A DNA stretch of 64,000 nucleotides from Bauldia litoralis (GTDB lineage: Bacteria; Pseudomonadota; Alphaproteobacteria; Rhizobiales; Kaistiaceae), in assembly GCF_900104485.1 (NCBI RefSeq), contig NZ_FMXQ01000001.1, positions 186,001 through 250,000 on the forward strand, given 5' to 3'. The position numbers were made by a program, and so were the translations under genes. This document shows, piece by piece, positions 29,893 to 39,184 of this stretch. Within the stretch, counting starts at the first letter, position 1, and every line of letters starts with the position of its first letter. Under the pieces are notes generated by a model, which did no database searches, had not been told where the DNA came from, and saw nothing but the letters and a program-made list of their open reading frames with translations.

Positions 29893-31158
29893 ATGAAGAG
29901 ATCCATACTCGCAGGGCTTGGCTTTGCATTCGCCTTGAGCGCCGCGCCGGTGGCGCACACCGCCGAACTGACGATCTTCCACTCGTGGTCGAATGAGAGC
30001 GAGATCGCCGCCCTCAACGTTTTCGTCAACGCGCTGAAGGACAAGGGCCACACGATCAAGGAACTCGCCGTCCCGCACGAGCAATCGGGCGCCGGCGGAC
30101 CGATCGTCAGCCTGGTGATCGCCGGGACCCCGCCCAACATCTTCCTGACCGGCAACGCCGACATCTACCGCGACATCCGGGATCGCGACCTTGGCCAGAC
30201 GGTCGGCGAACTGTTCGACGAGATCGGCGCGACGCCGAACTTCGCGGCACCCGTCCGCGAAGCCATCAAGGTCGACGGCGAGGTCCGCAAGATCCCGACC
30301 GGAATCCATATCGACGGCATCATCTACTACAACATGAAGGTCGCCGAGGCCGCCGGTGTCGATCCGACAAGCTGGACATCGGTCGAGGACATGTTCGCCG
30401 ACATGGGGAAGGTGAAGGACGCCGGCTACAACTTCATGGCCATGGGCGGCAACACCTTCCAGGCCGGCTACCTGTTCCATGCGCTGATGGCCGGCATCGC
30501 CGGGCCGGAGGTCTACAAGAAGTTCTATGAGGTCGGCCCCGATGGCCAGCCCGATCCCTCGGTCTTCGAGGAGCAGGGCCTGCGCGATGCGATCGAGGTC
30601 TTCCGCCAGATCACCGGCCAGGCCGACGAAGGCTGGGTGAACCGCCAGTGGAACGAGTCGACCAACACCGTCATCTCCGGCAAGACGCTCATGCACCTGC
30701 ATGGCGACTGGATGAAGGGCCAGTGGCGGGCCAACGACAAGGTTCTCGGCGAGGACTATGGCTGCATCAACCTGCCGGGCACCAAGGCGCTGTCGGTCAC
30801 CGTCGACGCCATGGGCATCCTTGGCGGCGAGCCGGTCTCACCGGAGCAGCTCGAGGCCGAATTCCAGATGGCGGAGATCGTCGTCGACCCGGTCCGCAAC
30901 GCCGAATTCGCATCCTTCAAGGGCTCGACGCCGGTCCGCACCGATGCACCGGCCGACAAGCTCGATGCCTGCAACACGCTGGTGCTGGAGTCGCTGGCCA
31001 AGGACAACTACTGGGTCCTGAATCCCTTCTACATCAGCGATTCCGACTGGATCAATTCGGTCTGGAACACGATGTTCACCTTCCAGGGCGATCCCGACAT
31101 GACGACCGACGACGCGGTCGAGATGCTGAAGAGTGAATACGAGGCGATCTTCAACTAG
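29893..31158 (+). CDS. Extracellular sugar-binding protein
   Basis: 421 residues, ATG 29893 after GGGAGGAAA. Signal peptide with basic start and cleavage near AHTA-ELT. The mature protein follows the family 1 solute-binding pattern (ELTIFHSWSNESEIAALNVFVNAL; GIHIDGIIYYNMKVAEAAGV). It captures the substrate in the periplasm for the permeases encoded before it. Binding protein last in the operon is less usual than first. A terminator follows at 31184. Confidence 0.95.
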   Translation: MKRSILAGLGFAFALSAAPVAHTAELTIFHSWSNESEIAALNVFVNALKDKGHTIKELAVPHEQSGAGGPIVSLVIAGTPPNIFLTGNADIYRDIRDRDLGQTVGELFDEIGATPNFAAPVREAIKVDGEVRKIPTGIHIDGIIYYNMKVAEAAGVDPTSWTSVEDMFADMGKVKDAGYNFMAMGGNTFQAGYLFHALMAGIAGPEVYKKFYEVGPDGQPDPSVFEEQGLRDAIEVFRQITGQADEGWVNRQWNESTNTVISGKTLMHLHGDWMKGQWRANDKVLGEDYGCINLPGTKALSVTVDAMGILGGEPVSPEQLEAEFQMAEIVVDPVRNAEFASFKGSTPVRTDAPADKLDACNTLVLESLAKDNYWVLNPFYISDSDWINSVWNTMFTFQGDPDMTTDDAVEMLKSEYEAIFN

Positions 31159-31183
31159 CCTCGCCGTCTTCACAAAGACGTCT

Positions 31184-31219
31184 GGAACCGGGTCTTTCGA
31201 GGCCCGGTTCCTTGCTTTT
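31184..31219 (+). terminator. Intrinsic terminator of sugar ABC operon
   Basis: GGAACCGGG (31184) pairs perfectly with CCCGGTTCC (31203) across a 10-base loop, followed by TTGCTTTT, 26 bp after the binding-protein stop. Confidence 0.8.
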
Positions 31220-31334
31220 CGACACCGTCCGGCCAACACGTCCGGGCGCGGCCCCGAGCCGCCCGACAGCCGGTCCCCATTGCGTTTGACGCCCCCTGCG
31301 GCCAGCGGCTCCCACCCGATTCCACAACCGGGGA

Positions 31335-31350
31335 TGGCCCGCATATTGCA
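31335..31350 (+). promoter_or_regulatory. Sigma-54 (RpoN) promoter of nasT
   Basis: TGGCCCGCATATTGCA matches the consensus TGGCACGN4TTGCW at all positions except one (C for A), with the obligatory GG and GC ten bases apart. Expected start is near 31361, 26 bases before the nasT ATG. Fits nitrogen control by NtrC. Confidence 0.75.
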
Positions 31351-31386
31351 TTGCACAAACACGCCCTCCGGCCTGATTGAAGCGCA

Positions 31387-31995
31387 ATGTCCACCCGCCT
31401 GCCCTCTGTACTGGTCGTTGACGAGAACGCGGTCCGCGCCGCGATCATCGAGGCCGGACTCCGTGAGGCCGGGCACGAAAATGTCACCATCGTCGCCGAC
31501 GTCCGGGGCATTGCCGGCGAGATCGCCATCCTTGAGCCCGACGTCATCGTCATTGGCCTCGAAAACCCCAACCGCGACATGCTGGAAAACGTCTTCCAGC
31601 TTTCGCGCGCCGTGAAGCGGCCGATCGCCATGTTCGTCGACCGCTCGGACCGCGACTCGATGGAGGCCGCGATCAACGCCGGTGTCTCGGCCTATGTCGT
31701 CGACGGCCTGAAGCGCGAGCGCGTCAAGCCGATCCTCGACATGGCTATCAGCCGCTTCAACGCCTATTCGCGCCTCGAACGCGAACTGGAGGACGCGCGC
31801 GGCGCGCTGCAGTCCCGCAAGATCATTGATCGGGCAAAAGGCTTCCTGATGCGCAGTCGCGGGCTGTCCGAGGACGCGGCCTATGCGCTCCTGCGCAAGA
31901 CCGCGATGAACCAGAACCGCAAGATTGGCGAGGTCGCAGAAAGCCTCGTTCTGGCGGCCGAGATGCTGGGGGACAGGGATGGCAGCAACGACTGA
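31387..31995 (+). CDS. nasT: ANTAR-domain response regulator NasT
   Basis: 202 residues. Receiver-like domain (1-~125, VLVVDENAVRAAIIEAGLREAGH) and C-terminal ANTAR RNA-binding domain (~130-195, RKIIDRAKGFLMRSRGLSEDAAYALLRKTAM). NasT binds leader RNA and prevents termination upstream of nitrate/nitrite assimilation genes when nitrate or nitrite is present. The position of the phosphorylated Asp in the third strand is Gly57 (DVIVIGLEN), so regulation is probably by NasS binding rather than phosphorylation. The gene overlaps nasS by 17 bases and follows a sigma-54 promoter. Confidence 0.9.
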   Translation: MSTRLPSVLVVDENAVRAAIIEAGLREAGHENVTIVADVRGIAGEIAILEPDVIVIGLENPNRDMLENVFQLSRAVKRPIAMFVDRSDRDSMEAAINAGVSAYVVDGLKRERVKPILDMAISRFNAYSRLERELEDARGALQSRKIIDRAKGFLMRSRGLSEDAAYALLRKTAMNQNRKIGEVAESLVLAAEMLGDRDGSND

Positions 31996-33217
31996 CATCT
32001 TCGCCGGATTCATTCCGCTGACCGATTCCGCGATCCTCGTCGCCGCCCGCGAATGCGGCTTCGCCGAGGAAGAGCGGATCGCCCTGTCTCTGATCCGCGA
32101 GACGTCATGGGCGAATATCCGCGACCGCATTGCCATCGGCCACTTTCAGGCCGCCCATATGCTGGCGCCGATGCCGATCGCCGCCGCCCTTGGCCTGACG
32201 CCGCTGAGCCAGGCGGTGCTGGCGCCGATGGCCCTCGGCCTTGGCGGCAACGCGGTCACCGTCAGCCTCGCCCTGTTCGACGAGATGCAGGCGGTGAACC
32301 CCGTCGACATGCTCGACCCCGCCTCCTCCGGCGCCGCGCTGCGGGAACTGGTTAGGCAGCGGCGCGACACCGGCAGGCCGCGCCTTCGCTTCGGCGTCGT
32401 CCATCCCCATTCGGGGCATAATTTCGAGCTGCGCTACTGGCTGGCCAGTTCCGGCATCCGCCCGGACGAGGATGTCGAAATCGTCATCGCCCCGCCGCCC
32501 TTCATGCCCGACGTGCTGGCCGCCGGACGCGTCGACGGCTACTGCGTCGGCGAACCGTGGAATTCCGTCGCGGTCGCCTCCGGCGCCGGGCGCATCGCCA
32601 CCGTGAAATCGGCGATCTGGAACTCCAGCCCGGAGAAGGTGCTCGGCGTCCATGCCGACTGGGCTGGCCGCAACCCGGAAGCCCTCGCCCGTCTCATCCG
32701 CGCCCTCTACCGCGCAGCGCAGTGGTGCTCGACCAGGGAGAACCACGCCGCCCTCGCCCATATCCTCGCCCGCCCCGACTACCTCGACCAGCCGGCCTCG
32801 CTGGTCATCAAGGCGATCGATGGATCGATCCTCGGCGGGCGCGGTGCCCGGTCCGGCATCGCCTTCTTCGAGCCCTTCGCCGGGGCCGCGACCTTCCCCT
32901 GGCAAAGCCACGCCCTGTGGTTCTACAGCCAGATGGTCCGCTGGGGTCAGGTCGCGCATACGCCGGCCAACGCCGAAGCCGCGCGGCTGTGTTTCCGGCC
33001 CGACATCTACCGCGCCGCGCTCACCCCGCTGGGGGGCGCGCTCCCCGGCGCCAATGCCAAGGTCGAAGGCGCCCTGAAGCAGCCGTCGCCCGTCGGCGCC
33101 ACCGCCGGATCGCTGGTGCTGGCCGCCGACGGATTCTTCGACGGCGCCGTCTTCGATCCGGACCGGCTCGACGACTACATCGCCACCCAGATGCCGCTCC
33201 GAACCCCTTCCGCATAA
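31979..33217 (+). CDS. nasS: Cytosolic nitrate/nitrite sensor NasS (NrtA/CmpA-like)
   Basis: 412 residues, no signal peptide. The sequence follows the NrtA/CmpA binding-protein family (FIPLTDSAILVAARECGFAEEE; VVHPHSGHNFELRYWLASSGI; GRVDGYCVGEPWNSVAV), whose transporter members bind nitrate outside the cell. Without a signal and directly coupled to nasT, it is best read as NasS, which holds NasT in an inactive complex until nitrate or nitrite binds. Gene order nasT-nasS with a 17-base overlap is reversed relative to the better-known nasS-nasT order. Confidence 0.85.
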   Translation: MAATTDIFAGFIPLTDSAILVAARECGFAEEERIALSLIRETSWANIRDRIAIGHFQAAHMLAPMPIAAALGLTPLSQAVLAPMALGLGGNAVTVSLALFDEMQAVNPVDMLDPASSGAALRELVRQRRDTGRPRLRFGVVHPHSGHNFELRYWLASSGIRPDEDVEIVIAPPPFMPDVLAAGRVDGYCVGEPWNSVAVASGAGRIATVKSAIWNSSPEKVLGVHADWAGRNPEALARLIRALYRAAQWCSTRENHAALAHILARPDYLDQPASLVIKAIDGSILGGRGARSGIAFFEPFAGAATFPWQSHALWFYSQMVRWGQVAHTPANAEAARLCFRPDIYRAALTPLGGALPGANAKVEGALKQPSPVGATAGSLVLAADGFFDGAVFDPDRLDDYIATQMPLRTPSA

Positions 33218-33363
33218 ACGCTAGCCAGAATCGATTTCGCCCAAACAACAGGCAAACGCCTGCGCAAGCGGGCAGCATCGCGCCTATTCTTTGTGCGTAA
33301 CAGTCTGAAATCTCTCGCTTATTCCAGTTGACTCGAATCCGCTTCTGGTCAATTGAATAGGGA

Positions 33364-33469
33364 CAGCCGATCGACGGCTGCCATATCCGCGTCCACTGAC
33401 GGGCGCTCCAGGCGATGCCGCCAAACCTGCCTCTTCCCGCTCGGAAGGGGTCGGTTTGGCGGCATTTTT
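33364..33469 (+). promoter_or_regulatory. Leader with attenuator hairpin before the nitrite operon
   Basis: In the 286-bp gap after nasS, a hairpin CAGCCG/CGGCTG (33364-33380, loop ATCGA) precedes a very strong intrinsic terminator. Terminator stem is ATGCCGCCAAACC (33415) with GGTTTGGCGGCAT (33453), then TTTTT. A terminator between nasTS and the nitrite genes is the expected substrate of NasT antitermination. The first loop has A1 and G4 but five, not six, bases, so it is not a perfect ANTAR site. Confidence 0.65.
33415..33469 (+). terminator. Intrinsic terminator in the nitrite-operon leader
   Basis: 13-bp perfect stem with a 25-base loop followed by five T, 35 bp before the transporter ATG. 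Position argues for regulated attenuation, not for operon end. Confidence 0.85.
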
Positions 33470-33503
33470 CGTTTCAGGCCCAGTCAAACCGAAGGATCCT
33501 CCC

Positions 33504-34343
33504 ATGTCCTACGTCCCTCCAGCCGAATTCGTCGTCAAGATGATCGATGCCGGCGAGGCCAAGGTGTTCATGTCGACCCGAGACACGATCATCCGCGCCT
33601 ATATGGCCGGCGCGATCCTCGCCCTCGCGGCGGCCTTCGCCATCACCATCTCCGTCCAGACCGGCCAGCCGCTCGCCGGCGCCATCCTCTTCCCGGTCGG
33701 CTTCTGCCTGCTCTACCTGATGGGCTTCGACCTGCTCACCGGCGTCTTCACGCTGGTGCCGCTGGCCCTGCTCGACAAGCGCCCCGGCGTCACCCTCAGC
33801 GGCGTCATGCGCAATTGGACCCTCGTCTTCGTCGGCAACTTCGCCGGCGCCTTCACCGTCGCGGTGATGATGGCGATCATCTTCACCTTCGCCTTCACCG
33901 TCGAGCCCAACATCGTCGGCCAGAAGATCGGCACCATCGGCGAAGGCCGGACCGTCGGCTACGCGGATCACGGCGCGGCCGGCATGCTGACGCTCTTCAT
34001 CCGCGGCGTGCTGTGCAACTGGATGGTCTCGACCGGTGTCGTCGCGGCGATGATGTCGAAGTCCGTCCCCGGCAAGGTCATCGGCATGTGGATGCCGATC
34101 ATGCTGTTCTTCTACATGGGCTTCGAGCACTCGATCGTGAACATGTTCCTCTTCCCCTCGGGCCTGATGCTCGGCGGCAACTTCTCGGTCAGCGACTACC
34201 TCATCTGGAACGAGATCCCGACCGTCATCGGCAATCTCGTCGGCGGCCTCGCCTTCGTCGGGCTGACGCTCTACGCGACGCACGCCCGCACCGCGCCGCG
34301 TCGCTCGCCCGAATATGACGGCGTCGCGGCCCCCGCCGAATAA
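33504..34343 (+). CDS. Formate/nitrite transporter family protein (NirC-like)
   Basis: 279 residues from ATG 33504 (AAGGA nine bases upstream). Six membrane helices with the FNT features FDLLTGVFTLVPLALLDKR, VFVGNFAGAFTVAV and FEHSIVNMFLFPSGL. FNT proteins are pentameric channels for formate, nitrite or hydrosulfide. Being directly before nirB, nitrite import is the likely task. First gene of the operon downstream of the attenuator; 95 bp to nirB. Confidence 0.9.
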   Translation: MSYVPPAEFVVKMIDAGEAKVFMSTRDTIIRAYMAGAILALAAAFAITISVQTGQPLAGAILFPVGFCLLYLMGFDLLTGVFTLVPLALLDKRPGVTLSGVMRNWTLVFVGNFAGAFTVAVMMAIIFTFAFTVEPNIVGQKIGTIGEGRTVGYADHGAAGMLTLFIRGVLCNWMVSTGVVAAMMSKSVPGKVIGMWMPIMLFFYMGFEHSIVNMFLFPSGLMLGGNFSVSDYLIWNEIPTVIGNLVGGLAFVGLTLYATHARTAPRRSPEYDGVAAPAE

Positions 34344-34438
34344 GCGCGCAGCACCTGCCCGGGCGGGGACGATGGTTCGCCAGTCGTACCCGCCCGCCGG
34401 CGAGACGCCCGCCACACCGGACAAGATGGAGTGACAGA

Positions 34439-36892
34439 ATGAGCGGCAAGCAGAAGCTGGTGGTGATCGGCAACGGCATGGCGCCCGGCCGCATGCTCGA
34501 AAGCCTCTTCGAGCTGGCGCCGGATCGCTACCAGGTGACGATCTTCAACGCCGAACCGCGCGTCAATTACGACCGGATCATGCTGTCGCCGGTCCTCTCC
34601 GGCGCCAAGACCTACGACGAGATCATCATCCACGGCGATGGCTGGTACATCGACCGCGGCATCACCCTCTACAAAGGCCACAAGGTCGTCGCCATCGACC
34701 GCGATGCCCGCACCGTCACCTCCGATGCCGGCGAGGTGGCGCCCTATGACAAGCTGGTCGTCGCCACCGGCTCCAACCCCTTCATCATTCCGGTCCCCGG
34801 CCACGACCTGCCCGGCGTGTTGAGCTATCGCGACCTCGACGACGTCAACGCCATGCTGCTCGCCGCCCAGTCCCGCGCCAAGGCGGTGGTGATCGGCGGC
34901 GGGCTGCTCGGCCTCGAAGCCGCGGCGGGCCTGCGCGAACGCGGCATGCAGGTCACGGTCCTCCATGTCATGCCGACGCTGATGGAGCGGCAGCTCGATC
35001 CCGCCGCCGGCTACCTGCTCGAGCGCGCACTCGTCGACCGCGGCATCGAAGTCGTCACCCGCGCCAACACCCGGGCGATCGTCGGTGACGGCAAGGTGGA
35101 GGGCGTCGAACTCGACGACGGCACCGTCATCCCCGCCTCGCTCGTCGTCATGGCCGTCGGCATCCGGCCGAATGTCGCCCTGGCGAAAGACGCCGGCCTC
35201 GAAACCGGTCGCGGCATCGTCGTCGACGCCGGCATGCGCTCAAGCGACCCGGATATCATCGCCCTTGGCGAATGCGCCGAGGTCGGCGGACAGGTCTACG
35301 GCCTCGTCGCGCCGCTCTACCGCATGGCCGAGGTCGCCGCCGCCCGCCTGGTCGAGGACCCGTCGGCGGAATTCGCCCACATGGATACGCCGACCAAGCT
35401 CAAGGTCACCGGCATCGACCTCTATTCGCTCGGCGATTTCGCCGAGGGCGACGACCGTCAGGAGATCGTCCTCCGCGACGCGACAGCCGGCGTCTACAAG
35501 CGCGTCGTGCTGAAGGACGACCGCATCATCGGCACGGTTCTCTACGGCGACACCGCCGACGGCGCCTGGTTCAACGACCTGATGAAGAAGCGCACCGACA
35601 TCTCCGCGATGCGCGACACGCTGATCTTCGGCCAGGCCTACCAGGGCGGCGCGGCGCTCGATCCCACCGCCGCCGTCGCCGCGCTGCCGGACGATGCCGA
35701 GATCTGCGGCTGCAATGGCGTCTGCAAGTCGACCATCACCGGCGCCATCGCGGCCAAGGGGCTGACCTCGCTCGACGCGGTCCGCGCCCATACCAAGGCG
35801 TCGAATTCCTGCGGCACCTGCACCGGGCTGGTCGAGCAACTCATGGCCCTCACTCTCGGCGACCGCTACAATCCCGCCGCCGTCACGCCGATGTGCGCCT
35901 GCACCGATCTCGGCCATGACGACGTCCGCCGCCTGATCAAGGCAAAGCGCCTGAAGAGCATCCCGGCCGTCATGCAGGAGCTCGAATGGAAGACCTCCTG
36001 CGGCTGCGCCAAATGCCGGCCCGCCCTCAACTACTACCTCGTCTGCGACTGGCCCAACGAATATGCCGACGACTACCAGTCGCGCTTCATCAACGAGCGC
36101 GTCCACGCCAACATCCAGAAGGACGGCACCTATTCGATCGTCCCGCGCATGTGGGGCGGCCAGACCACTTCGGCGGAGTTGCGCGCCATCGCCGATGTCG
36201 TCGACAAGTTCGACATCCCCTCCGTCAAGGTCACCGGCGGCCAGCGCATCGACATGCTGGGCATCCGCAAGGAAGACCTGCCCGCCGTCTGGAGCGATCT
36301 CGGCAAGGCGGGCTTCGTCTCCGGCCACGCCTACGCCAAGGGCGTCCGCACGGTGAAGACCTGCGTCGGCACTGACTGGTGTCGCTTCGGCACCCAGGAT
36401 TCGACCGGCCTTGGCGTGCGCATCGAGAAGTTCATGTGGGGCTCCTGGACCCCGGCCAAGGTCAAGATGGCGGTCTCCGGCTGCCCGCGCAATTGCGCCG
36501 AGGCGACCTGCAAGGATGTCGGCGTCATCTGCGTCGACTCCGGCTTCGAGATCCACTTCGCCGGCGCCGCCGGCCTCGACATCAAGGGCACCGAGGTGCT
36601 GGGCATGGTCAAGACAGAGACCGAGGCGCTCGAACACATCGTCGCGGTGGTCCAGATGTATCGCGAGCAGGGCCGCTACCTCGAGCGCATCTACAAATGG
36701 GCGAAGCGCATCGGCTATGACGAGGTTCGCCGCCAGATCATGGACGACGCGGAACGACGCGCCGCCTATTTCGAGCGCTTCGTCTTCTCCCAGAAATTCG
36801 CCCAGGTCGACCCGTGGTCGGAGCGCGTCTCCGGCAAGGACAAGCACGAGTTCAAGCCGATGGCCAACCTCGTGCTGGAGGCCGCCCAATGA
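34439..36892 (+). CDS. nirB: Assimilatory nitrite reductase (NAD(P)H) large subunit
   Basis: 817 residues. Order: FAD/NAD(P)H-binding oxidoreductase (1-~400, KLVVIGNGMAPG), two BFD-like [2Fe-2S] regions (CGCNGVC ~423-429 with later SCGTC; CACTDLG ~490 with SCGCAKC ~521), ferredoxin-like half-domain (~555-640) and the siroheme/[4Fe-4S] site CVGTDWC (~641) with CPRNCAEATC (~681). Reduces nitrite to ammonium in the cytosol with six electrons from NAD(P)H. Start has GGAG upstream. Stop overlaps nirD by 4 bases. Confidence 0.97.
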   Translation: MSGKQKLVVIGNGMAPGRMLESLFELAPDRYQVTIFNAEPRVNYDRIMLSPVLSGAKTYDEIIIHGDGWYIDRGITLYKGHKVVAIDRDARTVTSDAGEVAPYDKLVVATGSNPFIIPVPGHDLPGVLSYRDLDDVNAMLLAAQSRAKAVVIGGGLLGLEAAAGLRERGMQVTVLHVMPTLMERQLDPAAGYLLERALVDRGIEVVTRANTRAIVGDGKVEGVELDDGTVIPASLVVMAVGIRPNVALAKDAGLETGRGIVVDAGMRSSDPDIIALGECAEVGGQVYGLVAPLYRMAEVAAARLVEDPSAEFAHMDTPTKLKVTGIDLYSLGDFAEGDDRQEIVLRDATAGVYKRVVLKDDRIIGTVLYGDTADGAWFNDLMKKRTDISAMRDTLIFGQAYQGGAALDPTAAVAALPDDAEICGCNGVCKSTITGAIAAKGLTSLDAVRAHTKASNSCGTCTGLVEQLMALTLGDRYNPAAVTPMCACTDLGHDDVRRLIKAKRLKSIPAVMQELEWKTSCGCAKCRPALNYYLVCDWPNEYADDYQSRFINERVHANIQKDGTYSIVPRMWGGQTTSAELRAIADVVDKFDIPSVKVTGGQRIDMLGIRKEDLPAVWSDLGKAGFVSGHAYAKGVRTVKTCVGTDWCRFGTQDSTGLGVRIEKFMWGSWTPAKVKMAVSGCPRNCAEATCKDVGVICVDSGFEIHFAGAAGLDIKGTEVLGMVKTETEALEHIVAVVQMYREQGRYLERIYKWAKRIGYDEVRRQIMDDAERRAAYFERFVFSQKFAQVDPWSERVSGKDKHEFKPMANLVLEAAQ

Positions 36893-37218
36893 ACGCCCTG
36901 ACCCGCAACTGGATCGACGTCGGCGCGCTGGAAGACATCCCCCGCCGCGGCGCCCGCTGCATCAGGAACGGCGCCATGACTATCGCCGTCTTCCGCACGA
37001 CCGACGACCACGTCTTCGCCCTTGAGGATCGCTGCCCGCACCGCCAGGGGCCGCTCAGTCAGGGCATCGTCCATGACGGCTGCGTCACCTGCCCGCTGCA
37101 CAACTGGGTGATCTCGCTGGAGACCGGCAAGGCGCAGGGTGCCGACGAGGGCTCGGTCGAGGCGTTTCCGGTCCGGGTCGACGACGGCCGCGTCCTGCTC
37201 GCCGTCGACCTCGGATGA
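36889..37218 (+). CDS. nirD: Nitrite reductase small subunit (Rieske type)
   Basis: 109 residues with the Rieske [2Fe-2S] ligands Cys-x-His in DRCPHRQGPL (~49-51) and Cys-x2-His in TCPLHNWVI (~67-70). NirD partners NirB and is needed for its activity. Start codon overlaps the nirB stop (ATGA). Length is normal for the family. Confidence 0.95.
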   Translation: MNALTRNWIDVGALEDIPRRGARCIRNGAMTIAVFRTTDDHVFALEDRCPHRQGPLSQGIVHDGCVTCPLHNWVISLETGKAQGADEGSVEAFPVRVDDGRVLLAVDLG

Positions 37219-37244
37219 CGATGGGAATCGAAGGAGTACCGACG

Positions 37245-37688
37245 ATGATGACCAAGTCCGACGTGACCGCGATGATCTACGAGAAGAAGCGCGCTGGCGG
37301 CCTGACCTGGGCGGCGATCGCCGCCGATATCGGCATGAGCGAGGTCTTCGTCACCTCCGCCTGCCTCGGCATGAATTCGCTGCCGAAGGACAAGGCCGAG
37401 GCGCTCGCCGCCAACCTCGGTTTGCCGCCCGAAGCCGCGACCGTCCTTGCCGAATACCCGACCAAGTCCTTCGACAGGACGGTCCCGACCGATCCTTGCA
37501 TCTATCGCTTCTACGAGATCGTCGGCGTCTACGGCCAGACCCTGAAGGAACTGATCCAGGAAAAGGGCGGCGACGGCATCATGAGCGCCATCGATTTCGA
37601 CATGAGCGTCGACCGGCTGCCGAACCCGAAGGGCGACCGGATCGAGGTCCGGATGAGCGGCAAGCTCCTCGCCTACAGCGCCTGGTGA
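37245..37688 (+). CDS. cynS: Cyanate hydratase (cyanase)
   Basis: 147 residues from ATG 37245 (AAGGAG eight bases upstream); an ATG at 37215 overlapping nirD has no such site. The N-terminal helical DNA-binding-like domain (KSDVTAMIYEKKRAGGLTWAAIAADIGMSE) and the C-terminal catalytic region are present. The active-site Arg and Glu are in YRFYEIVGVYGQTLKELI, and the Ser lies further on in the SAIDFDMSV segment. Converts cyanate and bicarbonate to carbamate/ammonia and CO2. Located between nirD and cysG, so it is expected to be induced with nitrite assimilation. Confidence 0.95.
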   Translation: MMTKSDVTAMIYEKKRAGGLTWAAIAADIGMSEVFVTSACLGMNSLPKDKAEALAANLGLPPEAATVLAEYPTKSFDRTVPTDPCIYRFYEIVGVYGQTLKELIQEKGGDGIMSAIDFDMSVDRLPNPKGDRIEVRMSGKLLAYSAW

Positions 37689-37702
37689 CAGGGAGCCGCC
37701 CG

Positions 37703-39184
37703 ATGGCCATCGCCGCGACACTGTCCAAAACACCACCTGCGCCGCGCCGCATGGAGGCTCTGGCAACCCTGCCGGTCTTCTTCAGGCTGGCGGGAAGGAA
37801 GGCGATCGTCGCCGGCGGATCGGAAGCGGCCGCCTGGAAGGCCGAGCTTCTCGCTGCGACCGGTGCCGAGGTTCATATCTATGCGGAAGACATTGATCCG
37901 GCTTTCGAGGCGCTGATCGCCGCCGGTTCCCTTGTCCATCACGCCCGGCGGTGGGACCAGGCCATCCTGCCTGGCGCAGCCGTCGCCATCTGCGATGCAG
38001 CCACCGAGGCCGAGGCGAAGGCCTTCGCCGACGCGGCGCGGGCCGCAGGCGTGCCGGTCAATGTCATCGACAAGCCGGCCTGGTGCGACTTCCAGTTCGG
38101 CTCCATCGTCAACCGGTCGCCGGTTGTCGTCGCCATCTCGACGGATGGCGCCGCGCCGATCCTCGGTCAGGCGATCCGGCGACGCATCGAAACGCTGCTG
38201 CCCCCGGCGCTCGCCGGCTGGGCCGACCTTGCCCGCGCCATGCGGGACAGGATCGCCGCCACCCTCGCCGCCGGCCCCCAGCGCCGCGCCTTCTGGGAGC
38301 GCTTCGTCGACCGCGCCTTCGGATCCACCCCGGGAGAAGGCGCCGTCGACGCCCTGATGGCAGACGCCAGCGCAATCGCGTCCAACACCCATGCGTCACA
38401 GGGTCGGGTGACGCTGGTCGGCGCCGGGCCGGGCGATGCCGAATTGCTCACCCTGAAGGCCGTGCGCGCGCTGCAGTCGGCCGATATCATCCTGTTCGAC
38501 GACCTGGTCTCGGATGACGTGCTGGAACTGGCGCGCCGCGAAGCGAAGCGGATGCTGGTCGGCAAGCGTGGCGGGCGCGAAAGCTGCCGCCAGGAGGACA
38601 TCAACACAACCATGATCGCGCTGGGGAAGGCCGGCAAGCATGTGGTGCGGCTGAAGGGGGGCGACCCGATGATCTTCGGTCGCGCCGGAGAGGAAATCGG
38701 CCGCCTGCGGGCCAACGGCATCCCGGTCTCGGTGGTGCCGGGGATCACCTCGGCGCTGGCCATGGCGTCGTCCCTCAGCGTCTCGCTGACCCACCGCGAC
38801 TGCGCCCAGTCGGTCCGCTTCGTCACCGGCCACAGCCGCAAGGGCGAACTGCCGAAGGATGTCGACTGGCGGGCGATTGCCGATCCGACGGCGACAACGA
38901 TCTTCTACATGGGCGGCCGCACCGCCGGCGCGATCGCCAGTTGCCTCATGACCAACGGCGCGTCGTCAGCGACGCCCGTCGTCGTCGCAAGAGCCATTTC
39001 TCGCCCCGCCGAAAAGCGCTGGGCCGGTCGCCTCGCCGATCTCGCCGACGGCATGCGCACGATCGGCTACGACGAACCGGTTCTGATCGGCATCGGCAAG
39101 GTCTTCGATTCTGTCGTTATGGAGAGCGCCGGAAACCGGCCTGTCCCGCCGGTCGCGGCGGAGCGCCTGTCGATCCCGGCATGA
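37703..39184 (+). CDS. cysG: Siroheme synthase (bifunctional CysG)
   Basis: 493 residues from ATG 37703 with AGGGAG upstream. N-terminal domain (~20-225: FFRLAGRKAIVAGGSEAAAWKAELL) is the precorrin-2 dehydrogenase/ferrochelatase with NAD-binding GG-S motif. C-terminal domain (from ~233: GRVTLVGAGPGDAELLTLKA, with LKGGDPMIFGRAGEE) is the SAM-dependent uroporphyrinogen III methyltransferase. It supplies siroheme for NirB, explaining its place in the operon. A hairpin covers its stop codon. Confidence 0.95.
   Translation: MAIAATLSKTPPAPRRMEALATLPVFFRLAGRKAIVAGGSEAAAWKAELLAATGAEVHIYAEDIDPAFEALIAAGSLVHHARRWDQAILPGAAVAICDAATEAEAKAFADAARAAGVPVNVIDKPAWCDFQFGSIVNRSPVVVAISTDGAAPILGQAIRRRIETLLPPALAGWADLARAMRDRIAATLAAGPQRRAFWERFVDRAFGSTPGEGAVDALMADASAIASNTHASQGRVTLVGAGPGDAELLTLKAVRALQSADIILFDDLVSDDVLELARREAKRMLVGKRGGRESCRQEDINTTMIALGKAGKHVVRLKGGDPMIFGRAGEEIGRLRANGIPVSVVPGITSALAMASSLSVSLTHRDCAQSVRFVTGHSRKGELPKDVDWRAIADPTATTIFYMGGRTAGAIASCLMTNGASSATPVVVARAISRPAEKRWAGRLADLADGMRTIGYDEPVLIGIGKVFDSVVMESAGNRPVPPVAAERLSIPA

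Follow-up and report, generated by a model that had tools for sequence, protein, structure and literature searches.

The window, the whole 64-kb stretch of DNA that was analysed, carries at 31387..31995 of its forward strand a nasT gene whose product joins an ANTAR domain (PF03861, 77.4 bits) to a receiver-like domain that matches PF00072 with 27.2 bits, under the cut-off of 30.2. It adjoins and overlaps nasS (31979..33217, +; start codon inferred), which encodes an NMT1_2-type nitrate/nitrite sensor (PF13379, E 6e-68), and the PF03861 and PF13379 matches both lie above their cut-offs; in the relatives fetched for comparison, a NasS match is likewise found downstream of NasT, with a few exceptions. 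Four genes follow on the same strand, encoding a nirC-like transporter of the FNT (formate/nitrite) type (33504..34343; PF01226, E 2.3e-63), the NADH nitrite reductase large subunit NirB (34439..36892; TIGR02374 above cut-off), a NirD-like Rieske protein (36886..37218; PF13806) and the cyanase CynS (37215..37688; TIGR00673 above cut-off). The transporter stays below the cut-off of every NCBIfam FNT model, so nitrite is proposed as its substrate from the neighbouring genes. The cynS gene overlaps the end of nirD, so that cyanate use is tied to the nitrite operon. Further downstream, the frame at 37139..39184 (+) resembles siroheme synthase (CysG) in its later part, with PF00590, PF13241 and PF10414 above their cut-offs over residues 213-636, and its true start is internal. 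On the other side of nasT, a 12-bp terminator-like stem at 31184-31211, after an upstream gene for a solute-binding protein, closes that operon.

Structure of the leader

The 286 nt between the end of nasS (33217) and the nirC-like ATG (33504) form a leader for which the original prediction had proposed an antitermination switch operated by NasT, on the basis of a perfect 13-bp terminator stem with T5 before the nitrite transporter gene and of an upstream hairpin whose five-base loop carries A1 and G4. By sequence and folding, both of these elements are present. The intrinsic terminator (33415..33469, +) pairs ATGCCGCCAAACC (33415-33427) with GGTTTGGCGGCAT (33453-33465) as a perfect 13-bp basal stem enclosing an inner hairpin, and its T5 (33465-33469), the first T of which lies inside the stem, stands 34 nt upstream of the nirC ATG. 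Folded alone, the terminator has an energy of -40.3 kcal/mol, and all of 200 shuffles fold less well than the entire leader (33218-33503; z -4.8); the same holds for its part from 33310 to 33485 (z -5.8, again against 200 shuffles). A simple terminator scan, which permits only loops of 3-8 nt, did not list it. The upstream hairpin, here called P0 (33364..33380, +; CAGCCG-AUCGA-CGGCUG), has the five-base loop with A1 and G4 that had been described.

The accompanying statement that a second canonical hexaloop was not found reflects an oversight, as two further hairpins lie downstream of P0. P1 (33389..33406, +; GCGUCC-ACUGAC-GGGCGC) starts 8 nt after P0, contains one U-G pair in its stem and follows the ANTAR rule in full: its loop has six bases, among them A1 and G4, and is closed by a C:G pair. 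P2 (33411..33422, +; GGC-GAUGCC-GCC), separated from P1 by the 4-nt linker UCCA, is also a C:G-closed hexaloop hairpin and has the G at loop position 4 that the rule prescribes, with G instead of A at position 1; G1 and C6 can pair, leaving a four-base loop, and the folding energy is -4.3 kcal/mol as a hexaloop and -6.5 kcal/mol with this extra G-C pair. The leader of the window is therefore canonical in P1 and of a minority form in P2. The RNA target, which had been suggested to deviate from the ANTAR rule, does show a deviation, but this is the G for A at position 1 of the P2 loop and not the five-base loop of P0, a neighbouring hairpin that had been taken for the target, whereas the conserved target is formed by P1 and P2 downstream. 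P2 shares 33415-33422 with the 5' arm of the terminator, so that the two are mutually exclusive, and the terminator so far outweighs P2 that P2 could win only before the 3' arm is made and if it is held by a protein, which is the same condition that the ANTAR model demands. A search of the whole window with Rfam at gathering thresholds returned only a tRNA, so there is no catalogued RNA family under which the leader could be filed.

Conservation of the leader

The dual-hairpin leader was sought in 201 sequences fetched around nasT, duplicates included, with a script that required P1, P2 and an overlapping terminator with a T-run; 141 matches were obtained in 120 of the sequences, and one in Markov sequence of equal total length. 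An unselected test relied on 75 leaders of relatives, mostly from Mesorhizobium and related organisms, that were picked solely by the P1 core GTCCA..G..GG after nasS. Every one of them has a terminator arm (9 nt, at most one mismatch) overlapping P2, compared with a mean of 3.63 and a maximum of 9 after shuffling of the downstream part, and P2 takes the form GGC-R..G..-GCC in 74 of the 75. The terminator also overlaps P2 in all 15 representatives, not counting the window, that share less than 85% identity. In an alignment of 38 leaders, P1/P2 has 18 cells with changes on both sides (2.4 in shuffles), and the terminator has 79 double-change cells (26.6 in shuffles), a number that is partly built in because the finder required nine arm bases to be paired with at most one mismatch. 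The finder also required the four inner pairs of P1 together with P2, and left the two outer P1 pairs free of selection; these are paired in 35/37 and 36/37 rows, with 4 and 7 double changes.

Of the 90 entries that have a NasS match, among them the window and its copy L001, 79 carry P1 within 450 nt of nasS, by a pattern that itself required A1 and G4 in P1. Some of the 11 other entries come from contigs or stretches that end early, and L049, L055 and L072 have the leader according to R1, a covariance model of P1 plus terminator, in L049 and L072 at a position further downstream. The window's leader receives 69.4 bits from R1, which detects a leader in 50 of 80 nasT sources at E <= 0.01, 27 of them from its training set and 23 outside it; the other 30 have none at this threshold. 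By these sequence comparisons, the leader is orthologous to the NasT leader that related operons carry, and stands here before nirC-nirB-nirD-cynS. In some Mesorhizobium loci (L034:11509-11603, L013:11608-11699) a second leader of the same type lies about 3.5 kb further downstream, and one gene cluster may thus carry two attenuators.

The loop rule was examined on 78 model-aligned leaders. P1 loops have six bases in 59, four in 16 and seven in 3, the four-base readings arising for the most part from possible pairing between loop positions 1 and 6, and the six-base loops have A1 in 56 cases and G4 in 58. Position 4 of the P2 loop is G in 78/78, a count biased by the P2-locating script, which favoured G4, and position 1 is occupied by A in 70 leaders and by G in the other 8, the window among these 8. 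Each listed G1 loop of P2 ends with C or U, so that a G1-pyrimidine pair is possible.

Promoters

A sigma-54 (-24/-12) promoter-like site, TGGCCCGCATATTGCA (31335..31350, +), which agrees with the consensus at 11/12 positions, lies upstream of nasT, 52 nt before the gene, and is the only site with at least 11/12 on either strand of the 64-kb window; on this match it is a candidate sigma-54 promoter. Sites of the 11/12 level stand upstream of nasT in 3 of 160 other nasT regions, duplicates included. Among 80 relatives, 77 have a sigma-54 site (at least 9/12) within 450 nt after nasS, and the window's leader contains no sigma-54 match: at the place corresponding to the relatives' promoter (33328..33358, +), alignment with L004, L005, L007 and L008 reveals a degenerate site, TGACTCG for TGGCACG, with a 9-nt insertion. 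The same interval holds a possible sigma-70-like TTGACT / TTGAAT with a poor 19-nt spacer; a sigma-70 scan of 30900-34600 gave nothing at 9/12. A single promoter before nasT may accordingly drive nasTS and, by way of the attenuator, the nitrite genes as well. Patterns for NtrC sites, applied to the leader of the window and to the region before nasT, yielded only matches with three mismatches, which were not used. Around the degenerate promoter lies an imperfect inverted repeat (33319-33360; TTATTC-C-AGTTGAC ... GTCAATT-GAATAG), which is a stem in the RNA fold or could be a DNA operator.

Distribution in the genome and its relatives

In the genome that contains the window, the single significant R1 match is the nirC leader itself (E 4.5e-11), followed by one of E 0.46 on the opposite strand at the same place; the search scored 150 of 9697 first-look candidates, so divergent NasT targets in the genome may be missed. 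None of five other weak places (E 0.8 to 7.6) was accepted; on re-scoring in fetched stretches, P1 was missing from the alignment at the weak place C9:257440, and C14:53900 was not accepted either. The stretch with a narK-type gene and narGH gave one R1 match (E 0.016) from which the terminator is missing altogether, and no leader. Upstream of narGH (L220:9346-12129, -), a 927-aa protein has a NarK-family match in its C-terminal half, and its N-terminal part looks, by eye, like the NarK-like proteins behind the NasT leaders of relatives. The genome encodes four PF00384 proteins at E <= 1e-10, which by NCBIfam cut-offs are NarG, formate dehydrogenase alpha and NuoG, with a 716-aa protein that reaches no cut-off; none of the four reaches the cut-offs for NasA, NasC or NapA. 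A second ANTAR protein (L222, C14:158500-162500) has an AmiR_N domain (PF21332) and is encoded after a Peripla_BP_5 protein; the two are probably an AmiC-AmiR pair.

Among 28 genomes of the family, NasT is present in 10 and a leader at E <= 0.01 in 3, so that NasT also occurs without this leader; in one further genome (G010) a leader reaches E 0.004, but only when the search is confined to the smaller set of loci. The genes downstream of the leader in the relatives that were read begin mostly with an apparent NrtA-type (NMT1_2) or NarK-type (MFS) protein; the first protein is PF13379 in L004, and in L122 an MFS protein whose best NCBIfam match, below cut-off, is the NarK family. Close nirC homologues occur in 27 of 297 genomes of the order, giving 28 loci when that of the window is counted, and R1 detects a leader (E <= 0.01) at four of these, namely the window and three loci of the genus g77, in all three g77 genomes searched; the nirC leader of the g77 genome G197 runs divergently from nasT. 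The ANTAR-type leader before nirC in this genus was seen at L194:3096-3186 (-) and also in L248, L249 and L244. In L194 the nirC leader is divergent from nasT and another leader precedes an nrtA-like gene. In the g77 nirC leader, P0 resembles that of the window in having A1 and G4 in a loop of five bases.

Discussion

Taken together, the hairpins with their conservation and covariation, the mutual exclusivity of P2 and terminator, the nasTS genes next to the leader and the one significant match in the genome, all computed here, make it highly likely that the leader works as a transcription attenuator dependent on NasT and belongs to the known ANTAR dual-hairpin type; ligand-triggered release of NasT, RNA binding and read-through are inferred from the studied NasT, NasR and EutV systems. 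The NasT switch proposed in the original prediction thus gains strong support from the comparison with relatives and with the studied Paracoccus system, and the leader very probably works as an RNA on/off switch of standard design, its conserved hairpin pair largely following the ANTAR rule. According to the published descriptions of Paracoccus denitrificans, the NasS-NasT complex dissociates on nitrate or nitrite (PMC3795266), and NasT binds the nasA leader, activity being lost on mutation of the HI hairpin (PMC3795266, PMC5424462). By analogy, NasS would hold NasT when nitrate and nitrite are lacking, so that the terminator at 33415-33469 would form and transcription would be cut before nirC. 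With nitrate or nitrite present, the freed NasT would bind the growing RNA first at the P1 hexaloop (33389-33406) and afterwards at P2 (33411-33422), and the stabilised P2 would take the bases of the terminator's 5' arm and block the terminator, allowing read-through into nirC-nirB-nirD-cynS and probably into the cysG-like gene as well.

The closest parallel is the nasABGHC operon of P. denitrificans, in which nasT-nasS are likewise described as lying directly upstream of the attenuator, followed by nitrogen-oxyanion genes (PMC3795266, PMC5424462); there the genes are for nitrate transport and nitrate reductase, here they are nirC, nirBD and cyanase, and the leaders are likened by description, not by sequence. 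The EutV target of the Enterococcus faecalis eut genes is likewise reported to consist of two hexaloop hairpins, the second within a terminator arm (PMC3369931, PMC8934654), and the leader of the window differs from it in the G1 of its P2 loop, in the extra upstream P0 and in having NasS as sensor instead of a histidine kinase. As mutation of A1 or G4 in either loop of the EutV target is reported to lower induction (PMC3369931), the switch of the window could, with its G1, be weaker. For NasR of Klebsiella oxytoca, the account in PMC7496416 gives nitrate/nitrite-dependent antitermination through a P1P2 pair in the nasF leader, with SELEX yielding C:G closing, A1 and G4; NasR differs from NasT with NasS in that the sensor is one protein, which has a NIT domain. 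NasT of Bradyrhizobium diazoefficiens likewise acts by antitermination on mRNA leaders (nosR, nirA and others), but its targets are other genes, with no nirC-nirBD-cynS operon among those described in PMC6759348.

That the terminator is instead a plain constitutive one between nasTS and an independently promoted nirC operon, with P1 and P2 as relics, would fit the G1 in P2, the degenerate sigma-54 promoter of the window and the presence of nirC after the leader, where the relatives read have NMT1_2-type (nrtA-like) or MFS (NarK-like) genes. We consider this improbable, as all three elements, P1, P2 and the terminator, remain intact and mutually exclusive in the window, the similarity to relatives extends, by eye, beyond the T-run, and a leader of this kind is also carried by the nirC operons of the genus g77 in each of the 3 genomes searched. 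Still less credible, indeed very improbable, is the version of the original prediction, in which P0 is itself the sole NasT target as a non-canonical ANTAR site: its loop does have A1 and G4, but P1 and P2 are present with loops far more conserved than that of P0, and P0 does not overlap the terminator. The attenuator built on P1 and P2 is thus the reading we prefer, and within it P0 can be given different parts. In 53 non-redundant leaders (L129 left out), the 42 nt upstream of P1 were searched for GC-closed hairpins with a five- or six-base loop; 34 have such a hairpin (mean 12.4, maximum 21 in 1000 shuffles) and 10 have one with an A1/G4 loop (shuffle mean 0.98, maximum 5), both above the shuffles, and a control segment further upstream gave 10 hairpins and one A1/G4 loop. 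These counts identify P0 as a real conserved 5' hairpin whose loop is ANTAR-like in some lineages only.

The simplest role for P0, and one that we hold to be fairly probable, is that of a mere 5'-end hairpin that stabilises the transcript and is untouched by NasT, with P1 and P2 working as described above. In relatives, P0 begins approximately at the sigma-54 transcript start, as placed by promoter geometry, and in Mesorhizobium-type leaders its stem is kept while the loop drifts: 13 of 14 non-redundant leaders retain the hairpin, only one of them with A1/G4, and the loops are often UUCG-like. This pattern also speaks against P0 as a third NasT site, which is possible from its sequence but doubtful, and which would make it an extra docking hairpin that loads NasT before P1 and P2 emerge. 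Such a role would account for the overall A1/G4 enrichment in P0 loops, which speaks against a merely stabilising hairpin (9 of 34 hairpins against 7.6% in shuffles, binomial P 0.0008, a count made before the register of L028 was fixed), and for the occurrence of A1/G4 loops on different stems in Oricola (AUCGAA) and Nitratireductor (AGAGG), and also in two family members (AAAGAU, AGUGUA) and in the nirC leader of another family (AUUGA). It would also agree with the description of released P. denitrificans NasT as an oligomer of about six (PMC3795266), and, against a 5'-end hairpin, the window has no sigma-54 site before P0. On the other hand, the leaders are related, so that the 10 A1/G4 cases are not independent, in two of these cases (L171 and L020) the gap between P0 and P1 is 15-16 nt and in one (L194) 3 nt instead of 8-9, and the P0 loop of the window has five bases.

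The switch type itself is already known; what is new is a NasTS leader that, by the combined analysis, appears before nirC-nirBD-cynS, with P0, the G1 loop and the moved promoter as its individual traits. More speculative, and in our estimate rather unlikely, is the broader proposal that P0, P1 and P2 constitute three ANTAR-type hairpins in the NasT leaders of part of this order, the window and the g77 nirC leader showing a working P0 with a five-base loop; no three-hairpin ANTAR target was found in the open-access main texts consulted on ANTAR and NasT leaders. If it were true, the NasT oligomer formed on release would read three hairpins instead of two, and for ANTAR recognition A1 and G4 would be required but a strict six-base loop would not. 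The hairpins worth probing are now settled, and a binding assay with P0 only would miss the most conserved part of the target. For the organism, the leader joins a NasTS switch to nirC-nirBD-cynS in a genome where NarG is among the molybdopterin-oxidoreductase matches and no match exceeds the cut-offs for NasA/NasC or NapA. The leader also provides a natural test of whether P2 needs A at position 1 and whether a third hairpin contributes.
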